Source: Polyangiaceae bacterium
Lineage (GTDB): Bacteria > Myxococcota_A > Polyangia > Polyangiales > Polyangiaceae
Direction of reading: 5' to 3'
NCBI GenBank assembly: GCA_023150915.1
Contig: JAKLKA010000013.1
Coordinates: 1-64,000, forward strand
DNA: 64,000 nt
This document shows positions 18,606-30,743 of the stretch, piece by piece (the first letter of the stretch is position 1; the number at the start of each line of letters is the position of its first letter). Under the pieces are notes generated by a model that worked only from the letters and a program-made list of their open reading frames with translations, did not search any database and was not told where the DNA came from. Position numbers and translations under genes: made by a program.

Positions 18606-18724
18606 ACCCGGGTCATCGCGCCGAAATGCATTGGGGGCAAGATCGATTCCCGGCCTCGCGCGTACCCAACGCCGACCCGACAGTCGGTGTCGTAGCCAGG
18701 TGCCCCGGGGGTGAGGGGTGCCCC

Positions 18725-18730
18725 GGGAGG
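18725..18730 (+). promoter_or_regulatory. Ribosome binding site GGGAGG
   Basis: GGGAGG lies 5 bases before the ATG at 18736 and fixes the start of the DUF4139 lipoprotein there rather than at the upstream ATG at 18718. Confidence 0.65.
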
Positions 18731-18735
18731 TTTCC

Positions 18736-20835
18736 ATGCTTCGAAAGCGTCTTGGAGTTTTGATCGTGCTGGCCCTGGCCAGCTCCGGTTGCTCGGGCAG
18801 CCTGTCGCAGCGCCCGGTGAAGACCGACGCCGAGCTGGGTCGGGTGATCGTCTATCGCAGCGGCGTGGCCTACTTCGAGCGCCACGCGCGGGTGGTGGAC
18901 GGCAAGCTGGTGATGAACGTGCCCGCCGAGCGGGTCGACGACTTCCTGAAGTCGCTGCGCATTACCGACATCAAGACCGGCAAGAGCCTGCCGCTTTCGT
19001 TTCCGACGCTGGTGCGGCACGGCGACATGGTCGAGCTGGGCATCGAGCTGCCGAAGGACGCCTCGCGCGAGATCGCCATCACCTACGTGACCGAGAGCCC
19101 GGCCTGGAAGCCGAGCTACCGCGTGGAGCTCGGCAAAGAGGGGAAGGCCAAGCTCGAGGCCTGGGCCGTGGTCGACAACGTGTCGGGCGAGGACTGGGAC
19201 CGTGTCACGGTCGGGGTCGGCAGCACCTCTGCGCTGTCGTTCAAGTACGACCTGCACAGCGTGCGGTTCGTGGAGCGCGAGACGCTGAACGAGGGTCCGG
19301 CCGTGGCGCTGGCGCCGCCCACTGGCGGCACGCCCTACGCCGTGGCCGGTGGCGAGGTCGCGGTGGTCGGAAACCTGGCGCTCGACGAGGTCGAGCAGCT
19401 GACCGAGCGCGGCGGCACCGTGAGCATGTCGGACCTTGCAGCGGGGGGAGGGGGCGACCGCGCTGCCGGTGGAAAGCCCGCGGTGAAGATGAAGGCGCGT
19501 GCTCGAATGCTGCAGCAGCCGGTACCCGCGGCCGGCGCCGGCAAGGTGGTGACACTAGCCTCCAAGCTGCGCGCCAGCGGTCAACGCATCCGAGTCGAGG
19601 GCTATGCCAAGCCGGGGGAGAAGGACCAGAAGCAGGCCGCCCTGGGCCGCGCCAACGCGGTCAAGAACGCGCTTCTCGCCAACGGCGTGCCCGAAGCCCA
19701 GATCGACGTCGTGGCGACGGGCAAGACCTCGGACCGCGACGGCGTGCGCCTGGTGGCCGCGCACGACGACGCCAAGCCGGCGCAGCCCAAGCCCGCCGCG
19801 GCGCCCAGCGCGCAGAGCGATCCGATCGGCAGCGCGCTGTTCATTGCGCCCACGCCGCTCAGCATCAAGAAAGACCGCTCGGCGCTGCTCAACATGCTGA
19901 ACGTCACCACCCGCGGCGAGCAGGTTTACTACTACGATCCGGTCTCGTCGCGCGGTTCCAAGCGCTTCGCGTTTCGCGCGGTTCGGCTGGACAACCCCAG
20001 CGAGCACACCCTGGAATCGGGGCCGTTCACCGTCTACGCCGAAGGGCAGTTCCTGGGCGAAGGCCTGAGCGAGCCCATTCCGCCGAAGAGCGCGGCGTTC
20101 ATCCCCTTCGCCCTCGACAAGCAGCTGGTGGTCGAGCCGGTGGTCGACACCCGTGAAGAGATCGATCGGCTGGTCACCATTCAGCGCGGCATCGTGCGGA
20201 CCGAGGCGCAGACCGTCCGGCGCACCAAGCTGGCGCTGGCCAACCGCGGCGACGCGCCGGCGAAGGTCTGGGTGCGGCACGCGGTGCCCGAGGGCTGGAA
20301 GCTGCGCGACTCGAAGGTCAAGGTCGAGAAGCTGCGCGGCGCTCATCTCTTCCCCATCACCGTGCCGGCGCGGGGCGCCCTCGAGCTGGTGATCGAGGAG
20401 AGCCAGCCCCTGGACAAGACCATCGACATCAACACCGATGCCGGCGTCGAGACGCTGGCGTTGTTCCTGAAAAAGCAGAAGCCGGTGCAGCCGGAGCTCG
20501 CGAAACAGCTGGACGAGATCGTACGCCTGTACAAGGACATGGTCGACACCCGCGAGCACGTCGCGACGCTGGAGTCGCAGATGACCACCTATCGCGAGCG
20601 CGTGGACGAGATCCACGCCCAGCTGGTCACGCTCAGGCGAGTGAACGCCGCGGACAAGCTCAACCGCCATCTGGCGAAGAAGATGGAAGAGATCAGCGAG
20701 CGGCTGCAGAAAGCGACGATCGAGGTCAGCGATCTGAAGGGCAAGCTGATGACCGGCAAGGTCGCCCTGGCCGACCGCCTGGCAGAGCTCACGCTCGAGA
20801 CCAAGCCCCCCACCGCGGTGGCCGACAAGCGCTGA
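18736..20835 (+). CDS. DUF4139-domain lipoprotein with an OmpA-like insertion
   Basis: 699 residues. Signal peptide ends in ALASSGC (Cys19). The DUF4139 pattern is clear at both ends: [29 protein letters not shown] and [17 protein letters not shown] in the first part. [23 protein letters not shown] and a C-terminal coiled coil ([19 protein letters not shown]) are in the second. Between them, residues 271-332 resemble the OmpA/MotB peptidoglycan-binding fold: [17 protein letters not shown], then [16 protein letters not shown]. This would tie the lipoprotein to the cell wall. Function of DUF4139 is not established. An intrinsic terminator follows. Confidence 0.85.
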
Positions 20836-20923: not shown

Positions 20924-23662
20924 TTGGCAGACCCTTCCGCAGAAGACGAAGTCAGCCTCGCCAAGCAGCGACTCGGCAGCGTTTTGGCCGGGCGCTGGCC
21001 GCTCGAGCGGTTGATCGGCATGGGCGGCATGGCGGCGGTCTACGCCAGCCGCGACGAGGCCGACACGCCCGTGGCGGTCAAGGTCTTGCACAGCTCGTTC
21101 TCGACCAACGAAGGCGTGCGGCAGCGCTTCATCCGCGAAGCGCAGCTTCAGCAAGCGGTCGATCACCCGGGTCGCGTACACGTGTACGACGAAGGGGTCA
21201 GCGAAGAGAACGATCCCTACTTCGTGATGGAGTTCCTCCAGGGCTCCACCCTCGACAAGCTGTGGAAGAAGCACAACCGCGTGCTCGACGTCGAGTTCGC
21301 GCTCGAGGTCGCCGACTGCGTGCTCGACTTCTTGTCGGTGTGTCACGCCGAGGGGATCGTCCACCGCGACCTGAAGCCCGCGAACATCTTCGTCACCGAC
21401 GCCGGCGAAGTGAAGGTGCTGGACTTCGGCGTGGCGCGGAAGCGCGAGGCCGGGGTCGACCCGACCCTGGCCGGTACCGCCCTCGGCACGCCAGCCTACA
21501 TGGCGCCGGAGCAAGCGCTCGGGGCCAACGATCGGATCGACGGGCGCACCGACATCTTCGCGATTGGCGCGGTGCTGCACGCCATGATCACCGGCAAACG
21601 CCTGCACGAGGGGCGTTCGCACCAGGAAGCGTTCGTGCTCGCCGCGACGCAGCCGGCCTCTTCCGTGTCACAGGTCGCCCCCGAGCTGGCCCCGGGGGTG
21701 GTGTCGCTGATCGACCGGGCGCTCTCGTGGGACCCGCGCAACCGCTTCCAGAACGCCGACGAGATGCGCGAGGCCATCGCCGGCGTGCTGGCGGCGCTCC
21801 GCGGCACCCCCGAGGTCACCGCCCCCGAGCCCCAGCGGCCCCACGGTCGGGCGCAGCTGCTCGCGGCGCTGGCCGAGACCGCCGACAGCGAGCAAGTCGC
21901 CCGCGAGCTGACGGCGGAAGAGCTGGAAGCGGTCGAGCGGATCAAGGAGATCTTCGTGCGCATCGAGCGCGCGTTGAACGCCGTGCGGCAATACTCATCC
22001 GGTCACAAGGTCGTGGTCGGGCACATGCAGTCGGTGCACGAGGTGATCAGCGCGCACTGCGCTCGCCAGCCGAGCGGGCTGTCGTGGGAGGTGAAGCCCC
22101 ACTCGTTCACCTATCGGAACGCCGTGCTGTGGGAGCCACTGCACCCCTTCGACGAGATCCCCTACAACCTGTTCGCCAGCGGCTTCCGCGAGTTCACCAT
22201 CACGCCGGGCGTGACCCTGGACGAAGTGGCGACGTTGCTCGACCTGATGCGCCGCGACCCGATGCGCGATTTCTCGCCCGAGGACGACCTGGCGACCGCG
22301 TTCTGGGAGAAGCAGCTCGAGCACGTGCGTTACCAGGTGGTCAGCTCGTTCTTGACGGTGGGCGCGTCCGACGAGCTCGATCGCGAGTACGACGACCTGA
22401 TGGAATCCGGGCAAGACCTGGTCCAGAGCACGGTCCGGAAGAAGGGGGCCGGCGCCGACGTCGAGACCGAGCCGATGTCGAACGAGGAGCGCGCGGCGAT
22501 GATCACGGCGCATCAGGTCGCGCTCCGCGCCGTGCGGTCGGCCGGGGCGGCGGCGCTGGACGAGCGGGCCCGGCAGATGATCGCCGCGGCGCTCGACATG
22601 CCCGAGGCCGAGTGGGAGGCGCGCTACGTCAAGGTGCTGGCCCACGCGGCCAGTGATGCCATGGCGCACGGCAACCTGGCGCTCATCGCCGTGCCGCTCC
22701 AGGTCGGCCTGCACGAAGCCGCCTCGAGCCAGAGCCTGGAGGTTGCCCTCCGCCGAACCCTGGCGGTGCTCGCTCAGCTGGTGACGCGGGCCGGGCCGGG
22801 GGCACGCGCCGAGCTGGCGCGGGAGCTGTTCGACGAAGCAACCCTCGGCCTGGTGCTCAAAGAGCTGGCGCGGCCCGTTCCCGAGCGAGAGCGCGAAGCG
22901 GTCGAGCGCTCGGCGCCGCATCTGGCCGAGTTGATCGTCGAGGCGGGGCCGCAGGCTTTCGACACCGTCCTCGGTGCGCTGGCCCGCACCGACGTCGAGC
23001 CGATTCGCGACGCTCTGATGCGCTACCTCGAGATGCACGCGGTCGGGCGAGAAGAGCAGATCGGGGCGCTGCTCGGCGAGGCCGATCTGACGCGGGGGCG
23101 GGCCATCTTGGGCCTGCTCGGCCGGCTCGGCACCGAGGCCGCTGCGCGGGCGCTCAAGGCCGCCGAGTCGAACGCCTTCCCCGAGCTCCGCGTCGAGGCC
23201 GTGGCGGTCCGCGCCAAGACCTCGCCCGAGGGCCTGCGCGACGAGCTCTCGCGCCTGCTGGCCGACCGCGACCCGGGCGTGCGCATGGCGGTGCTGCGCA
23301 CCATGGCTCGCTACAAGGTAAAAGAGGCGGGGCCCACGCTGGTGCAGCTGATCGGCGACGCGGCGTTCCACAAGCTGCCGACCGAAGAACGTCAGCTGGC
23401 GCTCGAGACCCTGTGGGAGCTCTCGCCGGTGCGCGCCGAGAGTCTGGTCAAGGACCTGGCGGTGAAGGCCGGGATGCTCACGCGCGAGTCGGTCGACGAC
23501 ACGCGCATCATGGCCATTCACCTGCTCGAGCGCCTGAGCAGCAGTCGCGAGGTGATCGTCGAGCTGGACAAGGCAGCCGACAAGTGGACCAACTCTCAGG
23601 CCGTGCGTGACGTGGCCGCGCAAGCGGCGGCGGCCATGCGGCGGAGGCTCTCGGCCCGATGA
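20924..23662 (+). CDS. Ser/Thr protein kinase fused to a helical HEAT-like region
   Basis: 912 residues, TTG start. The kinase domain (about 22-290) is intact: GMGGMAAVY, Lys53, HRDLKPAN (147-154), DFG (167-169) and APEQ. From about 350 to 445 is a module found at the N-terminus of many HD-GYP proteins (VRQYSSGH...LFASGFREFTITPGVTLDEVATLLDLM). The rest is helical; residues about 660-900 read as HEAT-like repeats (DPGVRMAVLRTMARYKVKEAGPTLVQLI). There is no membrane helix, so it is cytosolic. Its stop overlaps the next start (ATGA), implying a stoichiometric partner. Confidence 0.9.
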   Translation: MADPSAEDEVSLAKQRLGSVLAGRWPLERLIGMGGMAAVYASRDEADTPVAVKVLHSSFSTNEGVRQRFIREAQLQQAVDHPGRVHVYDEGVSEENDPYFVMEFLQGSTLDKLWKKHNRVLDVEFALEVADCVLDFLSVCHAEGIVHRDLKPANIFVTDAGEVKVLDFGVARKREAGVDPTLAGTALGTPAYMAPEQALGANDRIDGRTDIFAIGAVLHAMITGKRLHEGRSHQEAFVLAATQPASSVSQVAPELAPGVVSLIDRALSWDPRNRFQNADEMREAIAGVLAALRGTPEVTAPEPQRPHGRAQLLAALAETADSEQVARELTAEELEAVERIKEIFVRIERALNAVRQYSSGHKVVVGHMQSVHEVISAHCARQPSGLSWEVKPHSFTYRNAVLWEPLHPFDEIPYNLFASGFREFTITPGVTLDEVATLLDLMRRDPMRDFSPEDDLATAFWEKQLEHVRYQVVSSFLTVGASDELDREYDDLMESGQDLVQSTVRKKGAGADVETEPMSNEERAAMITAHQVALRAVRSAGAAALDERARQMIAAALDMPEAEWEARYVKVLAHAASDAMAHGNLALIAVPLQVGLHEAASSQSLEVALRRTLAVLAQLVTRAGPGARAELARELFDEATLGLVLKELARPVPEREREAVERSAPHLAELIVEAGPQAFDTVLGALARTDVEPIRDALMRYLEMHAVGREEQIGALLGEADLTRGRAILGLLGRLGTEAAARALKAAESNAFPELRVEAVAVRAKTSPEGLRDELSRLLADRDPGVRMAVLRTMARYKVKEAGPTLVQLIGDAAFHKLPTEERQLALETLWELSPVRAESLVKDLAVKAGMLTRESVDDTRIMAIHLLERLSSSREVIVELDKAADKWTNSQAVRDVAAQAAAAMRRRLSAR

Positions 23663-26508
23663 CCGAGCCCGCAGCCGAGACCGCGCAGCTCTTGATGCGC
23701 AACGTGGCCGAGCTCGCCCAGCGGCAGCAGGCCCGCGAACGTGGCTCTGCCCTCGCCAGCCAGATCTTCCGCTTGCTCAAGGTGGCTCAGTTCCACGCTC
23801 TCGACAACATGGCGTTCTTGCAGCAGCTCGACCAGACGGTGGAGGCGCTCAAGGCGTTCGGGGCGCAGACCGGCGAGCCTCTCACGCTGCTGTTCGCCAA
23901 GAGCACCGTGTTCGTGTGTGGCCAGCTGCTCAAGGCGTCGCGCACGGAATACGAGTCTGCCCTCGAGCTGTCCGAGCTGGTGCGTCGCCTGGGGGTCACG
24001 CAGCTCACCATCCAGACCGACGCCGACCGGGCCGACCTGTCTGCCATGGCGCGGCTGTTCCAGCCTCCGCACAAGACGCGCGCCGAGCACGGAGTGATCG
24101 AGCCCTCGCCCCGCGTCCGGCTGCGGTTCGTCAGCGCGGCCCGCCTCGACGAGAACGACCAGGAAATGTCCGCGGAGGATCAGATCCTCCGGACGTACGC
24201 CACGACCGTGGTGGTGATGCGCCGGGTGTACGAGAACCTGCAAGCGGCGCGCTATCAGCTGCCCAATCAGGTGAAGCGGCTGGCGCAACGCTTGGTGGTT
24301 CTTTCCGAGGGGGACACGCCGGCGTTTCTCGGGGTCACCGGCATGCGCAGCGCCGTGAACGACGCTGCGGGGCGTTCCGTCAGCCGCGCCATCTTGGCCG
24401 TGGCCATGGGTCGGCAGCTCACCCAAGATCTGGCCACGCTCTCGCGCATCGCCATGTCGGCGCTGTTCATGGATGTGGCGATCCCCTTGGTCAGCGGCAG
24501 CACCGGCAAAGGTGCCGTGGCCACCCGGATGACGCCCACCGCCGAGCAGCGCTTGCCGGCGGCCACGGCGGCCGTGCTGACGGCCCTGGGGCAGGTCCGC
24601 GACGCATCGATGGTGCGCACGGTCATCGCCTACGAAGCGCACTGGCTCAGGCAAGTCACGCGGCTCGGGCCGATGTACGACGGCGAGTACAAGCCGATGG
24701 TGGCGGCGCGGATCGTGGCGACCGCGCATCGCTTCAACGAGCTGATGCAGCCCGACCTGGCGTCGAACCAGTCGCCCAGCGTCGACGACGCCATCGCGAC
24801 CCTGCGGGGCGAGGCGCGCGACACCGTCGATCAGGCCATGCTCGTGCTCCTGGTGGGCGCGCTCGGTGTGTTCCCCCGCGGTTCCCCCGTCCAGCTCTCG
24901 ACGGGCGAGAGCGCCGTGGTGCTGCGCTCGCCGGACAACCCTGCCGACTATCCGCGGCCCACCGTGCGGCTGGTGTACGACGCCTCCGGCAAGCCGCTGC
25001 GCATGAAGGTGGCGCTCGATCTGGCGGCCGACGATCAGCGCCAGGTGGTGCGCGTGATCGCCCAGCCCGATGCGACGCTGCTTCAGGCCTGCCAGGCAGT
25101 GCTCGCGGCCGGGGCCCCCGAGCCGCCCCGGCCCGAGGTGCCGGTCTCGGCCCGTGCGGCGCCGGTCCAGAGCCCGTCCATCGCCGACGTCGAAACCGAG
25201 ACGGTCCGGCCACGCGCTCCGTCCGTGGCCGATTTCGCGGCGCCGCGCGAGCAGATCCCGTCCTCTCACGACATACCGCCGGCTTCGCAGCGTCGCCTGC
25301 CGTCGGTGCAAGAGCTGACGCCTGCGCCACAGCTCAGGCTGTCGTCCGAGCCCGAGCTGACGCCGCCGCCCCGCGAGCGAGCGCCCTCGGTCGCCGAGCT
25401 GACGCCGACCCCAGCGTCGACGGTGAAGATGCGGCGCTCGCGGGCCTCGCTGGTCGAGGTGGTCGACGCGCCTCGGTCACGCCGCGACCCGCGCTCCGAA
25501 GACTTCGATGAAGAAGAGGCCCCCGCACCAGCGCCCGCACCCGCTCCCTCGCCGCCACCGCGTCAGCGCAAGCTGAGCCAGCAGCTGACGCGCCGCCCGT
25601 CCGAAGTTCTCGAGACCGAGGGCTTGCCCGAGCTGATCCCGGACACCGACGAGCTGGTCGTCGCCGAGCCGTCCGACCCGTCGTCGCACTGGCGGCGCGC
25701 TCCGGCCACTCTCGAGCCCCTGGGCGAACCGGTGGACGAGCCGGGGCCCGAGACTCACGCGCCGAGCGCCAGCGGCTCTCTCGAGCGAACGCCGTTCTCG
25801 AACGTGTTCCTGTACGTGCTCGACCGCGCGCTCTCGGGCACGCTGGTCCTGTCCGAGCCCGTGGAGCACGAAGGGGACGACCCCGCCGAGCACGCGGTGC
25901 TGTTCCAGGACGGCATTCCCACCAAGGTGCACGTGAACGCCCGCGTGGCCGCGCTGGGCCCCCTGCTGGTGGCGTTCGGCGCCATCGAGCAAGAGCAGCT
26001 CCAGAACGATCCCATCACCCAGCCGCCGACCCACGAAGCGACGCTGGAAGAAGAGCTCTTGGCCTCTGGCCTGTGCAGTGCCGAGCAGATCGCGGAAGTG
26101 CGCAACGAACAGATCATCGAGCGCCTGGCCTTCTTGTTCGGCCTTCCGCCGGCGACGCGCTACGCCTTCTACAACGGGTTCGATCTGGTGCAGGTGCTGT
26201 GGGGCGACGTGCCCGGGGTCACCTCGCCCCTCGGCGCACTCTCGCGTGGGCTGCGTGAGCACCCGGAAGAGTCGGCCATGGACGCCATGCTGCTGAAGCT
26301 CGCCGCCCTGCCGCTGGCGCTTCACCCCGAGGCCGACCCCTCGGTCTTCGACTTCACCGACGACGAGCTGGCGGTGGCCCATGCCCTGGCCGGCGGCCAG
26401 CCGTCGGTGCCAGATCTGATCGAAGCGGGTCACCATCCCGACGTGGTGCGCCGCGTGGTGTACGCGCTGATGCTCACGCACTGCCTGGCTCCGGTGAGCG
26501 GCGAGTGA
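23659..26508 (+). CDS. Degenerate HD-GYP protein with DUF4388-like C-terminus
   Basis: 949 residues. Residues about 45-134 carry the same N-terminal module as the kinase upstream (FHALDNMAFLQQLDQTVEAL ... LGVTQLTIQTDADRADLSAMARLF). Residues about 200-440 follow the HD-GYP layout, but the metal motifs are lost: ALFMDVAIP replaces the HD pair and LGPMYDGEYKPMVAARIVATAHRF lacks GYP. It is therefore probably not a cyclic-di-GMP phosphodiesterase. A long Pro/Glu/Arg linker (about 490-700) leads to a DUF4388/PATAN-like domain (GTLVLSEP...AVLFQDGIPTKVHV). It is cytosolic and co-translated with the kinase. Confidence 0.8.
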   Translation: MTEPAAETAQLLMRNVAELAQRQQARERGSALASQIFRLLKVAQFHALDNMAFLQQLDQTVEALKAFGAQTGEPLTLLFAKSTVFVCGQLLKASRTEYESALELSELVRRLGVTQLTIQTDADRADLSAMARLFQPPHKTRAEHGVIEPSPRVRLRFVSAARLDENDQEMSAEDQILRTYATTVVVMRRVYENLQAARYQLPNQVKRLAQRLVVLSEGDTPAFLGVTGMRSAVNDAAGRSVSRAILAVAMGRQLTQDLATLSRIAMSALFMDVAIPLVSGSTGKGAVATRMTPTAEQRLPAATAAVLTALGQVRDASMVRTVIAYEAHWLRQVTRLGPMYDGEYKPMVAARIVATAHRFNELMQPDLASNQSPSVDDAIATLRGEARDTVDQAMLVLLVGALGVFPRGSPVQLSTGESAVVLRSPDNPADYPRPTVRLVYDASGKPLRMKVALDLAADDQRQVVRVIAQPDATLLQACQAVLAAGAPEPPRPEVPVSARAAPVQSPSIADVETETVRPRAPSVADFAAPREQIPSSHDIPPASQRRLPSVQELTPAPQLRLSSEPELTPPPRERAPSVAELTPTPASTVKMRRSRASLVEVVDAPRSRRDPRSEDFDEEEAPAPAPAPAPSPPPRQRKLSQQLTRRPSEVLETEGLPELIPDTDELVVAEPSDPSSHWRRAPATLEPLGEPVDEPGPETHAPSASGSLERTPFSNVFLYVLDRALSGTLVLSEPVEHEGDDPAEHAVLFQDGIPTKVHVNARVAALGPLLVAFGAIEQEQLQNDPITQPPTHEATLEEELLASGLCSAEQIAEVRNEQIIERLAFLFGLPPATRYAFYNGFDLVQVLWGDVPGVTSPLGALSRGLREHPEESAMDAMLLKLAALPLALHPEADPSVFDFTDDELAVAHALAGGQPSVPDLIEAGHHPDVVRRVVYALMLTHCLAPVSGE

Positions 26509-29135: not shown

Positions 29136-30743
29136 ATGCAGGCCAGTCCCGTGCTGCTCGCCGAGCCGCGCATCGTCGGGCGCTACGCGCTCTACGGCGA
29201 GATCGCCGCGGGTGGCATGGCCACGGTGCACTTCGGGCGGCTGGTGGGCGCGGTCGGCTTCTCTCGGACCGTTGCCGTCAAGCGCCTTCACCCCCAGTAC
29301 GCCAAAGACCCCGACTTCGTGTCGATGTTCCTGGACGAAGCGCGGCTGGCGGCGCGCATCCGGCACCCGAACGTGGTCAGCACGCTCGATGTCGTCCCGC
29401 TGGACGACGAGGTCTTCCTCGTCATGGAGTACGTCCACGGCGAGGCGCTCTCGAAGCTGATCCGGGCGACCCGTCGCCAGGGCGAGATGGTGCCCCCCCG
29501 CGTGGCCGTGGCCATCATGGCCGGTGCCTTGCACGGGCTGCACGCGGCGCACGAGGCGAAGAGCGAGCAGGGCGTGCCGCTCAACATCGTCCACCGCGAC
29601 ATCAGCCCCCAGAACGTCCTGGTGGGCACCGACGGCGCCTCGCGCGTGCTCGACTTCGGCGTGGCGAAGGCGGCCGCCCGCGTCACCTCTACCCGCGACG
29701 GCCAGATGAAGGGCAAGGTCGCGTACATGGCGCCGGAGCAACTCCGCGGCAAAGGCGTCGATCGGCGCACCGACGTGTTCGCCGCGGGCATCGTGCTGTG
29801 GGAGACGCTCACCGGGCGCCGGCTCTTCGACGGCGATGATCCGGGCGAGATCATGGCCAAGCTGCTGCAGGCAGAGATCCCGACGCCCTCCAGCGTCGAG
29901 GCCAGCGTGCCGGCCCATCTCGATCCGATCGTGATGCAGGCGCTGGCGCGAGACCCCGAGGCGCGCTTTCCCACGGCCCGCGACATGGCCATCGCGCTCG
30001 AGCACGCGGGGCCCATCGCCATGGCGCGCGAGGTCGGCGAGTGGGCCGAGCGCATTGGCGAAGAGACGATCGGAAAGCGCGCCCGCCAGATCGCCGAGAT
30101 CGAGAGCGGCTCGCTGGCGCACATTCGCCCGGTCGATTCCGCGCCGATGTCCACACCGCCGGTCGCGTCCCACCCCGGGCATCTGGCCCCCACCGAGCCC
30201 GTGCCGGTGAGCTGGCCGGCCGCCGGCCCGCAGGGCGATCCGATCACTTCACCGTCACAGGTGTCGCACGTGACGGGGGTCTCGCGGCCGTCGGTCGGCA
30301 CTCACGCGTCGAGCATGTCGGTGGCGCCCCGGCGCCGCGGCCTTCTGGCAGCGCTGGTCGGCGTCGCCGTGGCACTTGGCGTCGCGCTCGTGGTGGTGGC
30401 GGCCATCCTCGTGTCCCGGAAGAAGCCCGACGCGGTCGACGTGATCGCGAGCGATCCGCTGCCCACGACCCCGGCCACGCCCACCGCCGAGACGCCCGAG
30501 CCGGTCCCCACGGTGACGGCTCCGCCCGCGGCCAGCGTCGAGGCGCCGGCGGCCAGCGTCGAGGCGCCGGCGGCCAGCGCCGCACCCGAGCCCAAGGCGG
30601 CGGCCAAGGCCCCCGCCAAGCCGCCGGTCGGCGGCGGGCCGAAGCGTCCGGTGACGGCTCCCAAGCCCGGCGCCGACGGTTGCGATCCGCCCTTCACCAT
30701 CGACAAGAACGGCGTGCGTCGCGTGAAGCCCGGCTGCATGTGA
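29136..30743 (+). CDS. Ser/Thr protein kinase with HRDISPQN loop, membrane-anchored
   Basis: 535 residues. The kinase domain (about 15-290) has AAGGMATVHFG, Lys49 (VAVKRL), HRDISPQN (153-160) and DFG (173-175). Ser157 replaces the usual catalytic-loop Lys; this variant recurs in the kinase at 34245-35195. After a linker comes one membrane helix near 405-425 (LVGVAVALGVALVVVAAILV), then an outer Ala/Pro/Glu-rich segment with ASVEAPA repeats, ending in CDPPFTIDKNGVRRVKPGC. The Cys pair at the end may be a disulfide. The gene downstream encodes a secreted protein and may be its partner. Confidence 0.92.
   Translation: MQASPVLLAEPRIVGRYALYGEIAAGGMATVHFGRLVGAVGFSRTVAVKRLHPQYAKDPDFVSMFLDEARLAARIRHPNVVSTLDVVPLDDEVFLVMEYVHGEALSKLIRATRRQGEMVPPRVAVAIMAGALHGLHAAHEAKSEQGVPLNIVHRDISPQNVLVGTDGASRVLDFGVAKAAARVTSTRDGQMKGKVAYMAPEQLRGKGVDRRTDVFAAGIVLWETLTGRRLFDGDDPGEIMAKLLQAEIPTPSSVEASVPAHLDPIVMQALARDPEARFPTARDMAIALEHAGPIAMAREVGEWAERIGEETIGKRARQIAEIESGSLAHIRPVDSAPMSTPPVASHPGHLAPTEPVPVSWPAAGPQGDPITSPSQVSHVTGVSRPSVGTHASSMSVAPRRRGLLAALVGVAVALGVALVVVAAILVSRKKPDAVDVIASDPLPTTPATPTAETPEPVPTVTAPPAASVEAPAASVEAPAASAAPEPKAAAKAPAKPPVGGGPKRPVTAPKPGADGCDPPFTIDKNGVRRVKPGCM

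Follow-up and report, generated by a model that had tools for sequence, protein, structure and literature searches.

Do two overlapping genes of a Polyangiaceae bacterium encode the halves of one signalling machine, and is the machine held together by a domain that both proteins carry? The question was raised by a reading of a 64,000-nucleotide stretch of DNA (the window), part of an 8.0-Mb genome assembled in 295 contigs, in which a kinase-HEAT protein and a degenerate HD-GYP protein were said to overlap by four bases and to share a module, which suggested that they associate in a signalling complex. The features of the two genes are collected in Table 1. The overlap was confirmed as an ATGA at 23659-23662 with both genes on the same strand, and its conserved form, RTGA, is kept among relatives in most of the loci compared. 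A GGAGG lies ~11 bases 5' of the gene 2 ATG, inside gene 1. On its upstream side the pair adjoins a same-strand gene for a DUF4139 protein with an OmpA-like match (window 18718-20835), and 2.6 kb downstream of the pair there is another Ser/Thr kinase gene (window 29136-30743).

Table 1. Features of the kinase-HEAT gene and its partner in the window
Feature	Positions	Strand	Details
Gene 1: Ser/Thr kinase, shared module, HEAT repeats	20924..23662	+	912 aa, TTG start
Protein kinase domain	21005..21751	+	residues 28-276; Pfam Pkinase E 1.2e-41
Shared module, copy 1 (kinase)	21914..22339	+	residues ~331-472; AF2 pLDDT 87
HEAT-repeat region	22364..23659	+	residues 481-912; conserved throughout the family
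CGGAGG RBS-like sequence within gene 1, then ATGA start/stop overlap	23642..23662	+	
Gene 2 (partner): shared module, degenerate HD-GYP, proline-rich linker, DUF4388-like	23659..26508	+	949 aa
Shared module, copy 2 (partner)	23707..24126	+	residues ~17-156
HD-GYP-fold domain (predicted)	24139..24870	+	residues 161-404; metal ligands lost (HD replaced by MD; HHExxDGxGYP absent)
Small extension at the C-terminal end of the HD-GYP region, rich in beta structure (FPRGSPVQLSTGE..)	24874..25068	+	residues 406-470; from model and conservation
DUF4388-like domain	25771..26184	+	residues 705-842

The kinase domain of gene 1 matches Pfam Pkinase with 143 bits against a cut-off of 31.7, and its catalytic motifs are intact in the translation (the VAVK lysine, HRDLKPAN and DFG). 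The equivalog model for the PASTA kinases PknB/Stk1 scores 244 bits, below its cut-off of 450. Pfam recognises HEAT_2 at residues 743-813 (E 9.9e-8, 32.6 bits against a cut-off of 27.7), and orthologues of gene 1 in related genomes are of approximately equal length.

BLASTP of the two window proteins against each other found no similarity; because BLASTP is blind to the resemblance of the modules, the homology test needed profiles. Order-level module profiles, built from 39 and 40 sequences and aligned with hhalign, gave a probability of 75.7% and an E of 2.4e-5 over 99 columns, while either module compared with the other domains of the pair stayed below 0.5% in the profile control. At phylum level (101 vs 99 sequences), hhalign returned a probability of 97.4%, an E of 1.1e-11 and a score of 69.0 over 128 columns, compared with a mean of 10.7 for 200 column-shuffled controls (s.d. 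2.1, maximum 23.1) and 14.2 for the reversed control. Single-profile searches matched in both directions at the corresponding place, the kinase-side HMM finding partner modules down to 1e-6 and the partner-side HMM finding kinase-side modules down to 9e-9. AF2 models of the two modules, made from separate alignments (pLDDT 87 and 89), have an identical order of elements: two helices and a beta hairpin first, then helix, strand and helix, and one more strand after these. Given the profile comparisons, the HMM cross-matches and the shared predicted element order, the two segments are, as judged from sequence profiles and models, homologous and paralogous copies of one alpha/beta domain. The profile alignment of the two segments that had been proposed as a check on the shared module thus came out significant and not empty, which bears out the claim that kinase and partner contain the same module. 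That the similarity is due to chance or to a generic helix pattern, for which the empty BLASTP between the window proteins would speak, is extremely improbable against a profile E of 1e-11, far lower shuffled and reversed controls, two-way cross-matches and a common predicted element order.

Other details of the sequence-only reading were adjusted. It had located the module correctly and drawn it too short, at residues ~350-445 of the kinase and ~45-134 of the partner, when the copies really span ~331-472 and ~17-156. The signature TIxxGxT, which it placed in both segments, has degenerated to TIQTDAD in the partner encoded in the window; the conserved core of copy 1 comprises H, WEP, F.xG.R and PEDD. 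Its statement that HD-GYP proteins commonly carry the module at their N-terminus found no support: among canonical HD-GYP proteins from related genomes, 0 of 29 had it. No model in Pfam, NCBIfam or PADLOC matches the module, the PADLOC matches being to the generic kinase domain only. Foldseek and VIA-align comparisons of the kinase-side module with structures gave no match better than E 2 or Z 4.5, which does not by itself prove a new fold, and a PDB sequence search with the module profile found nothing credible.

The second domain of the partner had been called a degenerate HD-GYP, and its predicted fold agrees, although Pfam HD and HD_5 give no match on the window protein. With VIA-align, the model of residues 161-404 scored a Z of 21.1 over 220 residues against Bd1817 (3tmd), and other HD-GYP structures followed at Z 14-11 (14.0 for DvhD, 13.0 for PmGH and 12.0 for PA4781), outscoring generic HD proteins. 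Pfam HD or HD_5 matches 14-18 of 47 partner relatives, the best at 9e-7. In the window partner the HD dyad reads MD, and both the HH pair and HHExxDGxGYP are missing. Across 65 kinase-fused pairs the HD dyad is kept in 22 and HH in none, and HHExxDGxGYP is absent from all kinase-fused relatives. HH is kept in 21 of the 58 loci scored as kinase-free, a few of which are cut by contig ends, with counts uncorrected for relatedness; some kinase-free lineages are also without the HH motif. Two kinase-free pairs, L285 and L286, have a partner with HD and a near-canonical site in which E is changed to R (HHRGVDGKGYP and HHRGVDGGGYP, respectively).

In PmGH the HD dyad and the HH of HHExxDGxGYP are among the metal ligands, and alanine at H221, D222, H276 or H277 abolishes activity (PMC4159591); Bd1817 of Bdellovibrio is catalytically inactive (PMC4159591). 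Since MD replaces HD, the HH pair is gone and kinase-fused relatives are without HH, we predict that the window partner is a pseudo-enzyme whose ancestor was HD-GYP-like. A partner that still hydrolyses a cyclic dinucleotide and is itself regulated by the kinase would fit the HD-GYP fold and the kinase-free relatives that retain HD and HH, including the two with near-canonical motifs. We consider this very unlikely, because the window protein has methionine for the HD histidine and no HH pair, no kinase-fused pair keeps HH, and ligand-to-alanine changes are enough to abolish PmGH activity (PMC4159591).

The C-terminal arm of the partner scores 17.2 bits against PF14332 (DUF4388), with E 0.0053 and a cut-off of 25. 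DUF4388 is matched by 19 of 19 aligned relatives of the partner (best 5.6e-8) and is missing from the partner in many related pairs. A separate 567-aa protein homologous to this arm was seen at G000:C114:75231-75947 (L008, L041), with a kinase gene 1.8 kb beyond it.

We found the pairing of the two genes to be nearly invariant. The N-terminal half of the partner was found in 56 of 144 genomes of the order. Among the loci fetched, each one that extends far enough has a same-strand kinase-module-HEAT gene immediately upstream, usually with the RTGA overlap. Named Polyangia genomes, including Sorangium, Minicystis and Labilithrix, contributed 49 loci, and the partner follows in all 46 readable ones (46/46). 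Phylum-wide, the kinase-side module occurs mostly in kinase-less proteins of 570-700 aa that are followed by a module-HD-GYP-like gene; the partner is directly downstream for 110 of 118 distinct module-HEAT proteins, and in the other eight the contig ends (five), the two genes are fused (one) or the frame is split ahead of the partner (two). As a guard against selection bias, loci without a partner match in the first search were also fetched, and every readable one nonetheless had a partner. Partner-type proteins without a recognisable module-HEAT neighbour were seen at three loci (L248-L250), and in the genomes searched the modules hardly ever turned up outside the pair. The order, module-HEAT and then module-HD, is constant across the family. 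No conserved third gene was detected beyond local relatedness, and the flanks are not common to the family, so only the pair travels. At one locus (L208), the module and HEAT lie in two consecutive frames ahead of the partner, which is either a natural split or a sequence error.

In at least three cases, from three genera and all in draft or metagenome assemblies, the two proteins are fused. L192 reads kinase-module-short HEAT-module-HD-GYP-like-DUF4388 in a single frame of 1636 aa, L282 joins kinase-module-HEAT-module-HD-GYP in 1426 aa, and L283 joins kinase-module-module-HD-GYP in 1173 aa, with its HEAT part unrecognised. L289 may be a fourth fusion; its module is in another frame and sequence errors are possible.

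Trees of the two proteins, computed for 91 loci, are congruent (patristic r 0.93, 66 of 88 splits shared), an agreement that taken alone could reflect species history. The window's genus contains three paralogous pairs, and these sort into three matching groups on the two trees; this co-segregation indicates that the operon was duplicated as a unit. Besides the window's pair, the same genome holds two more paralogous kinase/partner pairs (G000:C162, L039, and G000:C170, L040), and the G000:C170 partner is without the DUF4388 arm.

Near-constant adjacency across Myxococcota, with occasional fusion, suggests one signalling machine, and the best explanation is that the two genes probably encode a single two-protein signalling unit. 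The proposal of a coupled pair acting in a signalling complex is strongly supported by the near-invariant pairing, the co-duplication, the congruent trees, the conserved overlap and the three or more fusions. A different account would have one module gene duplicated in tandem long ago, its copies remaining adjacent through operon inertia and forming no complex; the paralogy of the modules and the constant gene order are what it would predict. It is unlikely, since flanks were reshuffled across the family while the pair stayed joined, paralogous pairs sit as units elsewhere in the same genome, and near-zero exceptions over a phylum are not expected from inertia alone.

The kinase itself is a later N-terminal addition to the module-HEAT protein. 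Most phylum relatives of that protein are without a kinase, and kinase-bearing proteins form one clade in the 91-locus tree, a grouping most simply explained by a single addition of the kinase to the HEAT half. L210 (G258:C175, 374-2851, minus strand) is a partner-type protein with its own kinase domain at residues 455-663, and is a separate kinase recruitment, to the other half of the pair. A kinase gene directly follows the partner in four kinase-free loci (L212, L236, L248 and L249); L248 and L249 have a module + HD-like protein and then a ~430-aa kinase gene within 10 bases.

The kinase-HEAT protein and its partner likely form a physical complex. Where they would touch is less clear-cut. 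Their paralogy, and their restriction to the pair in the examined genomes, would make the modules the natural site of contact, and the chance that contact does run through them is slightly less than even. Operon conservation and fusion point to a common task and to proximity, not to the surfaces that touch, and each module could instead make homodimers or bind a ligand. An apparent enrichment of module-module covariation was discarded when partner-swapping among relatives reproduced it: 28 module-module pairs were in the top 100 inter-protein pairs, compared with 30.2 in relatedness-preserving shuffles.

The strongest alternative is that the two proteins are functional partners, co-expressed in one pathway, whose modules work singly as homodimers or ligand-binding domains; the proteins would then meet elsewhere or never. 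Homology of the modules does not by itself give hetero-contact, and covariation singles out no module-module pairs beyond relatedness, both of which leave room for this reading. The fusions, in at least three of which a single chain retains both modules or the greater part of them, and the near absence of the modules outside the pair argue the other way, and we regard it as a serious contender that is somewhat less than probable.

Under the preferred reading of one signalling unit, the ancestral core would have been a module-HEAT protein and a module-HD-GYP-like protein with paralogous modules. In the window's lineage a single event would have given the HEAT protein its N-terminal Ser/Thr kinase; the partner would have gained the DUF4388 domain and lost the HD-GYP metal site. 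Translational coupling would make both proteins together, and they may assemble via their paralogous modules. The dead HD-GYP domain with DUF4388 could control the kinase as a sensor or as an adaptor or docking arm; the kinase substrate could be held, presented or recruited by the HEAT repeats. We suggest only tentatively that the pseudo-enzyme partner senses a ligand. A wider conjecture, to which we give a similarly modest weight, is that Myxococcota possess a signalling core built as a duplicated-module heterodimer, with a HEAT scaffold and an HD-GYP-like sensor. Kinases would have been recruited to it several times, fused to either half or placed next door, the HD-GYP site would have been lost where a kinase fused to the HEAT half, and a nucleotide-binding pseudo-enzyme would gate the kinase.

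Searches of open-access literature turned up no description of the pair. The parts are of known kinds; to the extent that this was checked, their obligate pairing via a duplicated new domain is undescribed. If the proposal is true, it would bring two large areas of bacterial signalling, Ser/Thr phosphorylation and the HD-GYP, or cyclic-dinucleotide, fold, together in a single conserved complex, within a phylum where Ser/Thr kinase and HD-GYP signalling both abound. The pair also supplies a new domain family and natural fusions for structure work, and its natural versions with and without a kinase allow comparison.

Each part of the pair can be set beside a known system. With the Hanks-type Ser/Thr kinases of the PknB family, gene 1 shares a complete kinase domain with its catalytic residues; it differs in having no detected PASTA domain and, as its C-terminal part, the module and HEAT repeats. 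HEAT-repeat scaffold proteins resemble gene 1 in its HEAT_2 match, whereas here the HEAT region is preceded by the shared module and belongs to a two-gene unit in the examined loci. DUF4388 proteins are comparable through the match in every one of the aligned partner relatives, and in this case the DUF4388-like domain forms the C-terminal arm of a putative pseudo-HD-GYP protein. The closest structure to the partner's second domain is Bd1817 (3tmb/3tmd), which is alike in fold and inactive, as is predicted for the partner. Bd1817 still has its di-iron centre, whereas the window partner has lost the HD and HH ligands and adds an N-terminal module and a DUF4388-like domain.
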